From assembly GCA_021805735.1 (NCBI GenBank), contig JAJZEE010000028.1:1-39082 (forward strand): DNA of 39,082 nt. Reading direction: 5' to 3'. Position 1 is the first letter of the stretch. The number at the start of each line of letters is the position of its first letter. The stretch comes from Bacillota bacterium. GTDB taxonomy: Bacteria; Bacillota; Bacilli; Alicyclobacillales; SLC66. The notes under the pieces are model-generated. The model was not told the DNA's origin and did not search any database. It saw nothing but the letters and a program-made list of their open reading frames with translations. Positions 1,970 through 28,012 of the stretch are shown piece after piece. The position numbers and the translations under genes are program-made.

Positions 1970-2932
1970 TTACAGGTGTGCGCCATGTGTTTCCACGGTC
2001 GTCAGCTTTTCATAGAATTCCAGGTATTTATCCTTGTCGGCGCTCGCCCGCAGCGCCATTGCCGTGCGCGGGTGCTCGTCCAGTAGACCCGTGATCGCAT
2101 AAGGAATCGTATAGCCCCACTCCACCCTCTCGCGCAAGGGAATAAACTGCCGTTCGATGATGTCGAGGAGCGACCGGACATCATACCGCGCGCTGTGCAG
2201 ATGGCCGACGAGCAACTCCGTCGGACAGTTGCCCGCCGCCCGCCCCATGCCGAAAACCGACGAATCAAGGTACGTAACGCCTTGGTCGAGACCGGTGAGC
2301 GTGTTGGCAAACGCCATTTGCAGGTTATTGTGCGTGTGAATACCCAGCGTCTTGTTGGGTGCAAACTTCTGAAACTTGGCCACCAGGTACTCGATGTCCT
2401 TGCCAAACAGACTGCCGAAAGAGTCGACCACATACACGATGTCCACCGGACTGTCGTTCAATTGTTCGAGGGCCTCATTCAAGTCATTTTCCCGCGAATG
2501 GGAGACGGCCATGATGTTCAGGCTGGTTTCGTAGCCGAGGTCGTGAAACTTCCCGGCCAGCTCAATCCCTTTGTCCACGTCCTTGATGTAACAGGCCACG
2601 CGGATCAGATCCAGGTAGCTCTCGTCGCGCGAAACGATATCCCGCTCATCCACCCGACCGATATCGACTAACGCTGACAGTTTCGTCGCCGTTTTCTCGC
2701 CAATCGTCGTCCGAATGAGTTCTTCTGTCAAATAAGCCCATGGACCGGCGTTGGGAACATGATGCAACAGGGGTGAATTTTTGTACCCAATCTCCATGTA
2801 ATCCACGCCGGCGCGACTGAGCGCCTGATAGAGCGCCCCCACAAACTCAGCAGAAAAATCCCAGCCATTGACCAGTCCGCCGTCCCTAATCGTGCAATCC
2901 AGTATTTTCGCTTCCCGCTGCTTCCTCGTCAT
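1970..2932 (-). CDS. DRE-TIM (HMGL-like) aldolase / acyltransferase-fold protein
   Basis: The product of 320 residues belongs to the HMG-CoA-lyase-like TIM-barrel family that includes 4-hydroxy-2-oxovalerate aldolase and isopropylmalate synthase. The N-terminal DCTIRDGG corresponds to the catalytic/metal-binding D-x-T-x-R-D-G motif, GIHTHNN supplies the HxHN metal ligands, and FGMGRAAGN is the conserved loop near the end of the barrel. There is no LeuA-type regulatory domain, so a stand-alone aldolase is likelier than an isopropylmalate synthase. The start at 2932 follows GGGGGAG; the frame stays open further upstream only because it runs through the T-box leader. Expression should be controlled by that leader, tying it to amino-acid metabolism. 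The substrate is unknown. Confidence 0.8.
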   Translation of the reverse strand: MTRKQREAKILDCTIRDGGLVNGWDFSAEFVGALYQALSRAGVDYMEIGYKNSPLLHHVPNAGPWAYLTEELIRTTIGEKTATKLSALVDIGRVDERDIVSRDESYLDLIRVACYIKDVDKGIELAGKFHDLGYETSLNIMAVSHSRENDLNEALEQLNDSPVDIVYVVDSFGSLFGKDIEYLVAKFQKFAPNKTLGIHTHNNLQMAFANTLTGLDQGVTYLDSSVFGMGRAAGNCPTELLVGHLHSARYDVRSLLDIIERQFIPLRERVEWGYTIPYAITGLLDEHPRTAMALRASADKDKYLEFYEKLTTVETHGAHL

Positions 2933-2959
2933 CGCTATCTCCCCCATGTCGGATCTCTG

Positions 2960-3222
2960 TACAATACAAAAAGCCCCGTCCCTCCAGGGACGAGACACAC
3001 TCGCGGTACCACCCTGGTAGAGAGCGTAGGCTCTCCACCTTCGTTGCGATAACGGCAGCGGTTTGCGCCACCGACCTGGACTACTGACGCCTCTGCGCGT
3101 TTGCCCAAGCAGCTCCGGAGTGTACTTCGTGCGTCCACGCAGACCGATTCGCAGCAACCACCGGCTCTCTGAACTGCGGCAAACGCCTACTCTCTCCATC
3201 CCAGCTAGTGACATGTAAAATT
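2960..3222 (-). promoter_or_regulatory. T-box riboswitch leader; specifier probably UAC (Tyr)
   Basis: The minus strand carries the canonical T-box sequence AGGGTGGTACCGCG (3002-3015), followed by a terminator hairpin and T-run. Stem I is closed by GCGTTTGCC (3178-3186) pairing perfectly with 3097-3105, and its distal part has the usual AGAGAGCCGGTGG and TGCTGCGAATCGG blocks. On the 3' side of Stem I the specifier context reads GAAG-UAC-ACUCCGGAG, placing the specifier at 3122-3124. UAC followed by a purine fits the T-box rule and would sense uncharged tRNA-Tyr. A one-base shift would read GUA (Val), so the specificity is less certain than the element. Confidence 0.9.
2968..2992 (-). terminator. 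Intrinsic terminator of the T-box leader
   Basis: On the minus strand CGTCCCT and AGGGACG (2986-2992 and 2977-2983) form a hairpin, followed by GGGC and a run of five T (2968-2972). It directly follows the T-box sequence, whose GGTGG bases would pair with the left arm region in the antiterminated state. It sits about 36 bases before the aldolase start codon. Confidence 0.8.
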
Positions 3223-3228
3223 GCGAGC

Positions 3229-3258
3229 ATCGTAGCACATGTACAGGTTTAACGTCAA
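3229..3258 (-). promoter_or_regulatory. Sigma-A type promoter of the T-box aldolase gene
   Basis: TTGACG (minus strand, 3253-3258) and TACGAT (3229-3234) are separated by 18 bases. Transcription from here would begin near 3222, just before Stem I of the T-box. Confidence 0.6.
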
Positions 3259-9381: not shown

Positions 9382-9500
9382 GGCTCCCGCTCCTTGAGCA
9401 GATCAAACGGGATTCCGGCCACCACCAGATAAACGCTCTCAGCGACTGCGGCCATCAACCCTGCCTCTCCTTGGTCTCCGCAGCGCGTGTAATATCTCAA
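9375..9500 (-). pseudogene. 41-codon ORF resembling the C-terminus of CobU (remnant or small gene)
   Basis: Between the CobT-BluB fusion and cbiB the minus strand has a 41-codon frame beginning with TTG (9498-9500). The TTG overlaps the TGA of the fusion gene as TTGA, has GGGGAGGAAA in front of it, and the frame ends in a TGA that overlaps the cbiB start. Its end, AAVAESVYLVVAGIPFDL, resembles the last residues of CobU/CobP (adenosylcobinamide kinase/guanylyltransferase; AAADEVWLVVSGI in Salmonella, from memory). The P-loop half of CobU is absent, so it cannot have that activity. I read it as a deletion scar of cobU that kept both coupled junctions, but a functional small protein cannot be excluded. 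Confidence 0.6.
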
Positions 9501-11473
9501 TCCCTTTCCTCCCCGGCTCCTCTTCTCTGTCGATCCGCCGCACTTTCCACGTCTATGTCTGACTGGGCATCTTTTGTTCCAAAGTTCTCCGTCGCATTGG
9601 TTTGTTCCCAGCTATCGTAAAATACGATCGTTTCAAGTGGCAACCGGCTTCCCCATCCGACCCGCTCCATGACGGGGATTTCTGGAAAGTGTGGCGTGTA
9701 GCCGACGGTGAGGAGCGCGACAGGGTCGACATGGTCAGGTATGTTAAGAATATCTCGGATGTCCTGCTTCTGATAGATACTGACCCAACCGACGGCGACC
9801 CCTTCAGCTCGCGCAGCCAGCCACATATTCTCAATCGCGCACGCTGTGGACATCAAGTCGGTCTCCGGAATGGTGTTTCGACCCAACACATGCGGTCCTC
9901 CACGCGTCGGATCGTTCGTGACACAGAATGTCACAGGCGCCTGTATAATCCCTTCGACTTTCAGACGCAAATAAAACTCCTTTTTCATATCTTGATAGTG
10001 TTCAGAGGCGATGACACGTTCCCGCTCCACCACCTGTTGCAACCGCTTCAAAGTATCCCTGTTCTTGACGACGATAAAGTTCCATGGTTGCATGTACCCG
10101 ACCGACGGGCCGTTATGTCCCGCCTCCAGGATACGACTTAGCACCTCAGTTGGCACCGGATCCGGCAGAAACACGCGGATGTCCCGCCTCGCCATAATCG
10201 CTTTGTAAACTGCAGCCCGTTCCGCATCTGTAAAGTCCAGTTCCATAGGGGAGCTAGTCACAATGTCGGCGTCACGCAGTCCGGCATCGGGAACCACAGC
10301 AGCAGCACCACCACCACGAACAGCCTGTAAGTCCTGGTGAACAATGGTTCCCGCCGACGGACCAGTCAAAGGAGTCTTTCGATGTGGATTGGTCACCCGG
10401 GCGTCCTCAAACGTAGCAGTTTCCGCCATCACCTTGCAGGCGTTCTGTAAGAGTGAGAGGGCGAACAACCCGCCCGAGCCCTCACCGAGACCTAAATGCA
10501 AGTCAAGCATCGGTCGCAAGCCGAGTTCTTGCAACACGTACCGATGCGCCGGTTCGGTCGACACGTGAGAAGCGATCAGGTAATCGCCAATCACCGCATT
10601 GAGGCGAGTGGCCCACAGTGCGGCAGTTCCCGTCATTAGTCCATCCAGTACAACAGGAACGCGCCGACTCGCTCCTGCGATAACTGCGCCAGCCAAAGCG
10701 GCAATTTCAAATCCACCAAGTTTCCCCATTACATCCCAAGGGTCATCGGCAGCAGGTTGATTAACTTCGATCGCCAGGGAAATGACCGCTTGCTTGTGTA
10801 ATAGCTGGTCGTCGCCGATTCCTGTGCCGCGGCCAACGACTTCCGCCGGCGGCTTCGCCAACATGCACGTCAGCATGGCGGAGGCGGCTGTGGTGTTACC
10901 AATACCCATTTCACCGACCACAAGAACATCGTGTCCGCTGTCGATGAGTTGATCCGCAACTTCGATGCCCACCTGCACCGCCTCGAATGCCTCTTCCCGC
11001 GACATGGCAGGCCCTTTTGTGAAATTTTGCGTACCTGCCGCCACTTTCCGAACCATTGCCTTTGGATGCCGCACTGTGTTGCGGACACCGACGTCCACAA
11101 CTGTCAGAGAGACACCTTGATTTCGTGCCAAGACACTGCTGACGGCGGTTCCCATACACATGTTGACGACCATCTCTTCGGTCACTTCGCGTCCATACGC
11201 GGAGACACTCTCCTCGCTCACACCGTGATCCGCTGCAAAAATGATCGCCGCAGCCCGGGTAATCGACGGAACCACTCGGCTTGTCATGCCACTCAGGCGG
11301 ACCACAGTTTCCTCCAGACGGCCAAGGCTGCCAGGCGGCTTGGTCAAGTCATCCATTCGCTCCTGCGCCCGTTTCATCGCGTGACGGTCAAGGGCACTTG
11401 TATTCTGCCATCTTTTTTCCAGTTTCGTCAGCAACCGAACTCCCCTTCTCAATTTAGCAATGCTTTCCGCCAT
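9497..11473 (-). CDS. cobT-bluB: CobT-BluB fusion: DMB phosphoribosyltransferase plus DMB synthase
   Basis: 658 residues in two domains. Residues about 25-375 are CobT, nicotinate-nucleotide:dimethylbenzimidazole phosphoribosyltransferase: FAADHGVSEE, GEMGIGNTTAASAM and LGLGEGSGG, with the catalytic-base glutamate at E331. Residues about 420-620 are BluB, the flavin-dependent enzyme that converts reduced FMN to 5,6-dimethylbenzimidazole: ARRDIRVFLPDPVP, GPSVGYMQPWNF and EGVAVGWVSI. A linker of about 45 residues joins them. The fusion therefore makes the lower ligand and activates it. No ribosome binding site precedes the ATG; a TTG at 11434 (codon 14) with AAGGGGAG six bases upstream may be the true start. 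No B12-riboswitch core was found upstream. Confidence 0.93.
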   Translation of the reverse strand: MAESIAKLRRGVRLLTKLEKRWQNTSALDRHAMKRAQERMDDLTKPPGSLGRLEETVVRLSGMTSRVVPSITRAAAIIFAADHGVSEESVSAYGREVTEEMVVNMCMGTAVSSVLARNQGVSLTVVDVGVRNTVRHPKAMVRKVAAGTQNFTKGPAMSREEAFEAVQVGIEVADQLIDSGHDVLVVGEMGIGNTTAASAMLTCMLAKPPAEVVGRGTGIGDDQLLHKQAVISLAIEVNQPAADDPWDVMGKLGGFEIAALAGAVIAGASRRVPVVLDGLMTGTAALWATRLNAVIGDYLIASHVSTEPAHRYVLQELGLRPMLDLHLGLGEGSGGLFALSLLQNACKVMAETATFEDARVTNPHRKTPLTGPSAGTIVHQDLQAVRGGGAAAVVPDAGLRDADIVTSSPMELDFTDAERAAVYKAIMARRDIRVFLPDPVPTEVLSRILEAGHNGPSVGYMQPWNFIVVKNRDTLKRLQQVVERERVIASEHYQDMKKEFYLRLKVEGIIQAPVTFCVTNDPTRGGPHVLGRNTIPETDLMSTACAIENMWLAARAEGVAVGWVSIYQKQDIRDILNIPDHVDPVALLTVGYTPHFPEIPVMERVGWGSRLPLETIVFYDSWEQTNATENFGTKDAQSDIDVESAADRQRRGAGEERD

Positions 11474-27211: not shown

Positions 27212-28012
27212 CTAAGGCGCGGGCGGTCCCTGTTTCAGTTCCTGCAGAATCTGCTTGACTTTCATGCCCTTCTTGAAGATGTATGTGCCCGGTTGAACGT
27301 CCGTGTCGATGCCCGTATTTTTCAGCAACATGTCAAACGCCACGGCGTTGCTCACCAGGTGTTGCTGGTACAGAAACTGCGACAGATTGCCCAAAGGCAT
27401 GCCAAGCGCCAGGTGAAACCGGAAAGCGCTCACCGTCTTCTGTACGTGAACCTTAGAGTTCCCGACATGCGTGGACGCGCCGTGATTTGCCGCCGCATGC
27501 GTCAGCGGTCCCTTCACCGCAGGTTTTGCGGCGCTTTCCACCTGGACGCGGGGCTGCACGATCGGCTGGTGGAGGAACAAGCCCAGCAAAGCCGCCGCCG
27601 CCACTGCACTCGCAAAAGCTGCGCGCCGGAACCAAGGCATATGAAAGAACTGTCGTTCGTAGACAGAAATGACTGAATCGATGCGCCAGTTCCCATTGAT
27701 CAGGATCAAGCGCATGACATACCCGGTCGCTCCGAGTCCGGCCCGGACGTAAAACGCCGGAACGTCATCCCGGACGTCTGTCGCGATCACTTCTCCTTGC
27801 AGTGTGGATCGCCACAGCTTCACGAGCGATTTTCTTTCCTCCAGACGATCGTTTTCCGTCAGATGCAAATACGGCTTGATCTCGCGCACAAAGAGCTGGC
27901 GCGGGAAATCCGGAAGTCCAATATGTCGGATGGCTCGTGCAAAGGATTTGTGTACAACTCCAGTCATGAACGATCGCAAGAACTGGTTGCTGTCCATGTC
28001 GGTCTCTCGCAC
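27212..28012 (-). CDS. Membrane protein with MltG-type LysM-like C-terminal module
   Basis: 266 residues. An N-terminal cytosolic part of about 120 residues is unrecognised. A single transmembrane helix follows near residues 130-150 (RRAAFASAVAAAALLGLFL), then an Ala/His-rich extracytoplasmic linker (about 155-190). The C-terminal 70 residues (FRFHLALGMPLGNLSQFLYQQHLVSNAVAFDML, NTGIDTDVQPGTYIFKKGMKVKQILQEL, read in two pieces) match the LysM-like N-terminal module of the peptidoglycan transglycosylase MltG/YceG, but the catalytic YceG domain is absent. It may bind or regulate wall synthesis rather than cleave. The GTG start follows AAGGA at normal spacing; an ATG five codons later is an alternative. 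Confidence 0.68.
   Translation of the reverse strand: MRETDMDSNQFLRSFMTGVVHKSFARAIRHIGLPDFPRQLFVREIKPYLHLTENDRLEERKSLVKLWRSTLQGEVIATDVRDDVPAFYVRAGLGATGYVMRLILINGNWRIDSVISVYERQFFHMPWFRRAAFASAVAAAALLGLFLHQPIVQPRVQVESAAKPAVKGPLTHAAANHGASTHVGNSKVHVQKTVSAFRFHLALGMPLGNLSQFLYQQHLVSNAVAFDMLLKNTGIDTDVQPGTYIFKKGMKVKQILQELKQGPPAP

Follow-up and report, generated by a model that had tools for sequence, protein, structure and literature searches.

A tyrosine-type T-box leader precedes a DRE-TIM aldolase of Bacillota that may form DAHP from pyruvate

T-box leader and aldolase gene at the locus

The DNA analysed here (the window) is a stretch of 39,082 nucleotides from a Bacillota bacterium of the order Alicyclobacillales. 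On its minus strand, between positions 3258 and 1970, a promoter-like site, a T-box leader, a terminator-like hairpin and a coding sequence of 320 codons follow one another. The promoter-like site (3229..3258), retrieved by a consensus scan of the sequence, is of the σ70 type: the hexamers TTGACG and TACGAT are separated by 18 nt, and a TG precedes the second hexamer. The leader (2983..3211, minus strand) matched the whole RF00230 covariance model (1-219) with 111.4 bits against a gathering score of 93 (E 5.4e-24), the check that a preliminary description of this DNA had proposed. Stem I (3111..3206) was drawn from a consensus fold with compensatory changes; it contains what we take, by the usual names of such elements, to be the AGUA/GAA specifier loop, in which the tyrosine codon UAC (3122..3124) lies in the context GAAG-UAC-A. 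The antiterminator (2984..3017), recognised from sequence and consensus fold, carries the T-box sequence and a UGGU bulge (3011-3008), the partner of the tRNA acceptor end by inferred pairing. A terminator-like hairpin (2973..2996), with TTTTT after it, overlaps the 3′ arm of the antiterminator. With a score above gathering, and with Stem I, the T-box sequence and an antiterminator overlapping a terminator all present, the element qualifies as a member of RF00230, and the complete leader outlined in the preliminary description, from promoter through Stem I and T-box sequence to terminator, is indeed there.

In the consensus fold, 28 of 62 predicted pairs had at least one sequence changed on both sides with pairing kept. 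Since, in addition, a T-box lies upstream of the orthologue in all nine genomes of the order that have one, the leader is not a chance match. Seventeen T-box matches were found in the same genome at E<=0.001, three of them above the gathering score.

The open reading frame called mechanically has 422 codons and extends backward through the leader; the coding sequence proper (2932-1970, minus strand) encodes 320 amino acids. The scanned neighbours, namely a DUF6904 protein, an acetamidase, an NMT1-type ABC transporter and cobalamin genes, are not amino-acid genes, and the aldolase gene therefore stands alone, as had been stated. Among the cobalamin genes and elsewhere in the window we noted two further features. 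A single open reading frame (9497-11473, minus strand) joins a DBI_PRT (CobT-type) phosphoribosyltransferase to a nitroreductase-family domain and adjoins genes for a CobD/CbiB protein and an aminotransferase. A c-di-AMP riboswitch (RF00379; 28097-28223, minus strand; 42.3 bits, gathering 38) apparently leads the minus-strand frame 27212-28012.

The protein scored 91.3 bits with the HMGL-like family PF00682 (cut-off 29) and has the first-strand Arg-Asp, the HxH motif and the fold of the DRE-TIM metallolyase superfamily; its preliminary naming as a DRE-TIM aldolase was thus well founded. Finer assignments failed. The cut-off for 4-hydroxy-2-oxovalerate aldolase (TIGR03217) was not reached (117.5 against 286), nor were the NCBIfam cut-offs for 2-isopropylmalate synthase (best 61 against 517), an identity that would have refuted the preliminary description. 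A Pfam scan at E<=1 retrieved neither DAHP synthase family (PF00793, PF01474); the aldolase could therefore only act like a DAHP synthase and is not a homologue of one.

An AlphaFold model built from 16 input sequences had a pLDDT of 87.6, with residues 19-22, just after the RDG motif, below 50. The best structural matches were 3dxi (Z 30.3, 2.3 Å over 260 residues) and 1nvm (Z 29.1, 2.7 Å over 266). To judge by their names, the 50 Foldseek and 50 VIA matches shown all belong to DRE-TIM-type enzymes or to related carboxylase/carboxyltransferase barrels, which does not settle the reaction. The closest solved structure, the putative Bacteroides aldolase BVU_2661 (3dxi; 29-32% identity), shares the RDGG segment and GMGRGAGN with the window protein; in contrast, no counterparts of D90 and R93 appear in the alignments, and the function of 3dxi is unknown. 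Among solved enzymes whose reaction is named, 4-hydroxy-2-oxovalerate aldolases (1nvm, 4lrs, 4jn6 and 8ih7) come nearest; they share the fold (Z 27-29), the first-strand Arg-Asp and the HxH motif with the window protein at only 21-25% identity, and inspection by eye revealed no dehydrogenase partner of the window protein.

Residue conservation was assessed in 217 non-identical family sequences of the phylum Bacillota. Invariant to two digits are R16, D17, G18, G19, L20, N22, Y50, D90, R111, H199, H201, R231, N235, E239 and H287, and R93 is conserved at 0.99; such near-total invariance suggests one function. We presume that R16, D17, H199 and H201 hold a metal-bound pyruvate enolate, roles taken over from work on 4-hydroxy-2-oxovalerate aldolases. 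In those enzymes the His following RDG is catalytic. Aligned with 1nvm, the window protein lacks it and reads RDGGL, so its catalytic base remains unassigned. R231 and R93 occupy the places of Ala and Ile in 1nvm; we infer, without binding data, that they bind phosphate.

Specifier codon and distribution of the leader

The loop segment GAAGUAC can be parsed either as GAA-G-UAC, with a tyrosine codon, or as GAA-GUA, with a valine codon. We therefore used a reading rule for the 3′ side of Stem I (GAA, 0-1 base, codon, purine), which was calibrated on the other 16 T-box leaders of the same genome, ten with downstream genes named by NCBIfam and six by eye. The expected codon stood at the specifier place in eight of the ten: trpS UGG, leuA CUC, leuS CUC, ileS AUC, pheS UUC, proS CCC, tyrS UAC and valS GUC. 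The misfits were serS, without the expected codon, and proC, whose codon occurs only too early in the leader. Among genes named by eye, alaS and cysS fitted and one of two thrS-like genes possibly did, while hisS, the other thrS and a serine-pathway gene did not. The rule is good, not perfect. The two thrS-like genes have a T-box each (L014, L016). Applied to the aldolase leader, the rule gives UAC followed by A; GUA would be followed by C.

The order sample comprised 59 genomes, the present one included. Orthologues with at least 68% identity occur in nine; a tenth match has only 28% identity. All nine have an upstream T-box (85.5-116.7 bits), and eight of these exceed the gathering score, the lowest being that of G048 (85.5 bits, gathering 93). 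The specifier site reads GAA[G/A]UACA in every case, with GAAGUACA in seven leaders and GAAAUACA in two (G001 and G002). Because these two read GAAAUACA, it is UAC that is kept and not GUA. The comparison of orthologous leaders that had been suggested as a check thus gave UAC throughout and no other specifier, as the tyrosine class demands. Clostridia T-boxes that read GAAUACA precede an aldolase-tyrS operon in two genomes and a tyrS-aldolase operon in a third. Taken together, the nine leaders, the own-genome calibration and these operons bear out the tyrosine assignment made beforehand; the link to tyrosine is strong, and the response to uncharged tRNA-Tyr is inferred.

Beyond the order the leader was not seen on the Bacilli orthologues compared. 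A T-box motif was present at 23 of 128 loci with an identity of 55% or more, and all 23 come from the nine order genomes (several loci per genome). Orthologues of 60-68% identity outside the order (Paenibacillus, Ammoniphilus, Halalkalibacter, Seinonella and others) had no upstream T-box motif, and Rfam at E<=1e-4 retrieved no T-box from Bacilli orthologue loci L027-L034. Tyrosine T-box control of the aldolase is thus seen in this order and in three Clostridia genomes; the orthologues examined from Paenibacillus and other Bacilli do not show it.

The leader has the same parts as tyrosine T-boxes of the tyrS type (Stem I, AGUA/GAA loop, UAC specifier, T-box sequence and terminator), and a UAC T-box also lies upstream of tyrS in the same genome (L011). 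It differs in that it controls an aldolase. Two aldolase leaders of the order, in G048 (L025) and G052 (L026), depart further from that type: each has one Stem I with two antiterminator-terminator modules after it, and the two GTGGTACCGCGAG sites are 168 and 97 nt apart, respectively. At the G052 locus a second T-box (L026, 2606-2858, plus strand; 85.4 bits, below gathering) starts about 150 nt past the aldolase; the contig ends within the gene that follows it.

Gene linkage and DAHP synthase content of aldolase-bearing genomes

When neighbours were clustered for the window and eight further T-box genomes, none was common to most. Most Paenibacillus loci belonged to one of two syntenies, and no gene of aromatic metabolism was noticed immediately next to the aldolase; pheS/pheT-like genes, named by eye, lay several kb downstream in 13-14 of 80 loci examined. 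In Ammoniphilus (68% orthologue) the next gene after the aldolase, before a ccpA-like gene, encodes a bifunctional DAHP synthase/chorismate mutase. In a related genome (G199; L188 compared with L040) the flanks look alike by eye, and 273 bases stand in place of that gene.

Linkage to aromatic genes recurs among more distant homologues (33-49% identity to the window aldolase). In a class of 82 genomes, seven have a homologue, which in five lies between a fused trpEG and trpB and in the other two does not; the identity of trpEG and trpB was confirmed by NCBIfam in one genome. A sample of 291 Clostridia genomes contained 19 with a homologue, in one case with tyrS. In one Clostridia family (f139, which we guess to be gut Lachnospiraceae) the homologue is present in 84 of 348 genomes. 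Thirty query proteins were run by tblastn against the sequence within 1.5 kb of the gene at all 84 loci, some of which are cut by contig ends. In five of them tyrS lies on the same strand within 200 nt, in the order aldolase-tyrS (G1118, G1432) or tyrS-aldolase (G1204, G1375, G1185). Rfam, run on 80 of the 83 loci L233-L315, placed T-boxes before aldolase-tyrS in G1118 (98.8 bits) and G1432 (96.2 bits) and before tyrS-aldolase in G1204 (99.2 bits); upstream of tyrS in G1185 and G1375 none scored above gathering, the G1375 locus being cut by the contig. Two of the 84 loci are linked to the trp operon (trpD-aldolase-trpE in G1330, trpA-aldolase in G1230), G1355 has a T-box between the aldolase and trpC, and one locus (G1369) reads tyrA-EPSP synthase-aldolase. 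In addition, aroC lies on the opposite strand in two loci, and pheS is 0.9 kb away in one. A T-box with UUC (111.3 bits; L251, 750-959, minus strand; G1419) was seen before a pheS two genes behind the aldolase.

Eleven other aminoacyl-tRNA synthetase queries gave no match within 400 nt of the aldolase in these 84 loci. Non-aromatic queries matched cysS in two loci (opposite strand) and proC and thrS in one each, none within 400 nt; these queries came from the present genome and may be less sensitive in f139, where the own-genome tyrS query found the same five loci. In 75 of 84 loci no tested aromatic gene lay on the same strand within 400 nt.

Aromatic operons and tyrosine-controlled genes often house DAHP synthase isozymes, and we therefore counted PF00793 (type I DAHP synthase) genes in 40 aldolase-bearing and 40 aldolase-free f139 genomes. 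The groups were not random: the former were 40 of the 84, chosen among the more complete ones, the latter the 12 listed first and then others in number order. At least two PF00793 genes were present in 6 of 40 aldolase-bearing against 30 of 40 aldolase-free genomes (Fisher p 9.5e-8), and the higher-scoring type (226 bits or more) in 5 against 25 (p 6.5e-6). The deficit of a second copy had the same direction in each genome-size stratum (below 2.65 Mb, p 0.021; 2.65-3.25 Mb, p 0.004; above 3.25 Mb, p 0.016). In a tree built from the common DAHP synthase of 20 + 20 of these genomes, aldolase status required 14 changes, compared to 13.7 with shuffled labels; status being unclustered, a single clade does not explain the contrast. 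It is, however, a gene tree in which many branches are weak and one row (G1195) was misread.

A PF00793 DAHP synthase is kept in 50 of 55 aldolase-bearing genomes searched, the present one included, so the data do not show that the aldolase suffices. We considered whether the present genome has lost the shikimate pathway; a CM-DAHP synthase, TyrA and, by eye, trp genes rule this out. PF00793 was not found in 4 of 15 aldolase-bearing genomes, the MAGs G002, G010 and G013 (91, 73 and 88% complete; aroB is present in G013) and Seinonella peptonophila (G153), nor in one aldolase-bearing f139 genome (G1160). As it was also not found in 2 of 40 aldolase-free genomes, absence (5 of 55 against 2 of 40) is not a contrast in itself. 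PF01474 was absent from all 40 genomes searched for it, those lacking PF00793 included.

The Seinonella draft (NZ_FQVL01000001.1) has the aldolase, and neither a type I nor a type II DAHP synthase (PF00793, PF01474) was found in it. Its aroC, aroB, chorismate mutase, trpD-C-F-B-A and tyrA form one block, with aroB, aroC, aroH, trpB and tyrA confirmed by NCBIfam. AroB uses DAHP, and Seinonella should accordingly have a source of it. The strongest candidate for that source is the aldolase, provided that the draft, 98% complete by a figure from G360 (apparently the same genome), misses no gene.

Possible function of the aldolase

Computation shows the leader, its specifier and the conservation of both, and it shows that members of the family repeatedly lie with genes for tyrosine, tryptophan and the shikimate pathway. 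From these observations we infer a role for the aldolase in the section of aromatic amino-acid synthesis that all three end products share. The uncharacterised aromatic amino-acid-related step suspected in the preliminary description gains independent support from operons and phyletic pattern, the step itself being inferred.

Antitermination by uncharged tRNA is established for T-boxes. Here, uncharged tRNA-Tyr would pair with UAC in Stem I and with UGGU of the antiterminator bulge; the terminator would then be avoided and the aldolase made, which would raise flux into the shikimate pathway. Its predicted reaction is an aldol condensation of pyruvate, as metal-bound enolate, with erythrose 4-phosphate (E4P) to give DAHP. 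Pyruvate as donor and E4P as acceptor are proposed because of the fold, the first-strand Arg-Asp, the HxH motif and the phyletic exchange with DAHP synthase. The aldolase, tyrosine-controlled in this order, may thereby take the place of one DAHP synthase isozyme without being its homologue; E. coli AroF is likewise under tyrosine control.

We put at about one half the probability that the gene encodes a tyrosine-T-box-controlled enzyme of the aromatic pathway, most likely a pyruvate-dependent DAHP-forming aldolase, the reaction being inferred without substrate data. For DAHP formation from pyruvate and E4P taken alone the chances are even at best, and biochemistry is needed. Points against it are the DAHP synthase kept in 50 of 55 genomes, the fact that three of the five exceptions are incomplete MAGs and Seinonella a draft, the replaced RDG-His, the 75 of 84 f139 loci without a near aromatic gene and the non-random groups.

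It is possible, though we doubt it, that the same tyrosine T-box controls another aromatic-linked reaction, such as removal or repair of a 2-oxo-acid or deoxy-sugar by-product, or a reaction that branches off an aromatic 2-oxo acid. The Tyr, Trp and shikimate genes linked to the aldolase identify a pathway and not a step, coexistence with DAHP synthase is the rule, and a LigB-type gene is the next gene in G007 and G014; by itself, however, such a reaction predicts neither the scarcity of second DAHP synthases nor the lack of any known DAHP synthase in Seinonella. The LigB-type gene in question, for an aromatic ring-opening dioxygenase, lies directly 3′ of the aldolase in G014 (L115) and G007 (L116). 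The idea of a LigB meta-cleavage route was dropped, as LigB adjoins the aldolase only in these two genomes among the loci compared.

It is unlikely that the enzyme is catabolic or unrelated, such as an aldolase of the 4-hydroxy-2-oxovalerate type, and came under a tyrosine T-box by promoter capture: the gene is alone in the window without amino-acid neighbours and its nearest solved enzymes of named reaction are of that type, but tyrS/trp adjacency recurs in distant lineages and in both gene orders, the TIGR03217 score is far too low and the RDGxH segment differs. A different codon for the T-box (GUA, valine), or a T-box without function, can hardly be maintained on the double parse alone, given the GAAAUACA leaders of G001 and G002, the tyrS operons, the purine rule satisfied in eight of ten named genes and the leader retained in nine of nine genomes.

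The DAHP-forming reading would place the aldolase beside DAHP synthases of types I and II and 2-keto-3-deoxy-6-phosphogalactonate (KDPGal) aldolase by its proposed product; it differs from the former in matching no Pfam DAHP synthase family at E<=1 and, by inference, in using pyruvate rather than PEP. PMC3018139 cites KDPGal aldolase as an alternative DAHP-former and leaves missing DAHP synthases open. In Wels et al., tyrosine T-boxes are given for tyrS, NhaC transporters and the tyrosine operon of the B. cereus group (PMC2494555); the word "aldolase" is absent from its main text and from that of PMC3766115. Roseburia has complete aromatic pathways by annotation according to PMC7478625, which has no bearing on the entry step. 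We found no report of a tyrosine T-box-aldolase link in the open-access literature searched, subscription papers being outside our scope. The T-box is of a known kind, and the aldolase is a new target.

The step by which carbon enters the shikimate pathway is a central point of control, and to our knowledge it occurs in two PEP-using types. We tentatively suggest, while holding it somewhat doubtful, a new non-homologous class: a DRE-TIM metal-dependent pyruvate aldolase that would form DAHP without PEP across Bacillota under tyrosine or tryptophan control, often replacing a second DAHP synthase and in some genomes all known ones. PEP-free entry, if true, would interest metabolic engineers as well. 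The family is a concrete candidate for shikimate entry in Bacilli such as Paenibacillus and in Clostridia, and if the reaction is another, an unrecognised step linked to aromatic amino acids is still marked. Judged by the related genomes, the aldolase may be an unrecognised start of aromatic amino-acid synthesis.
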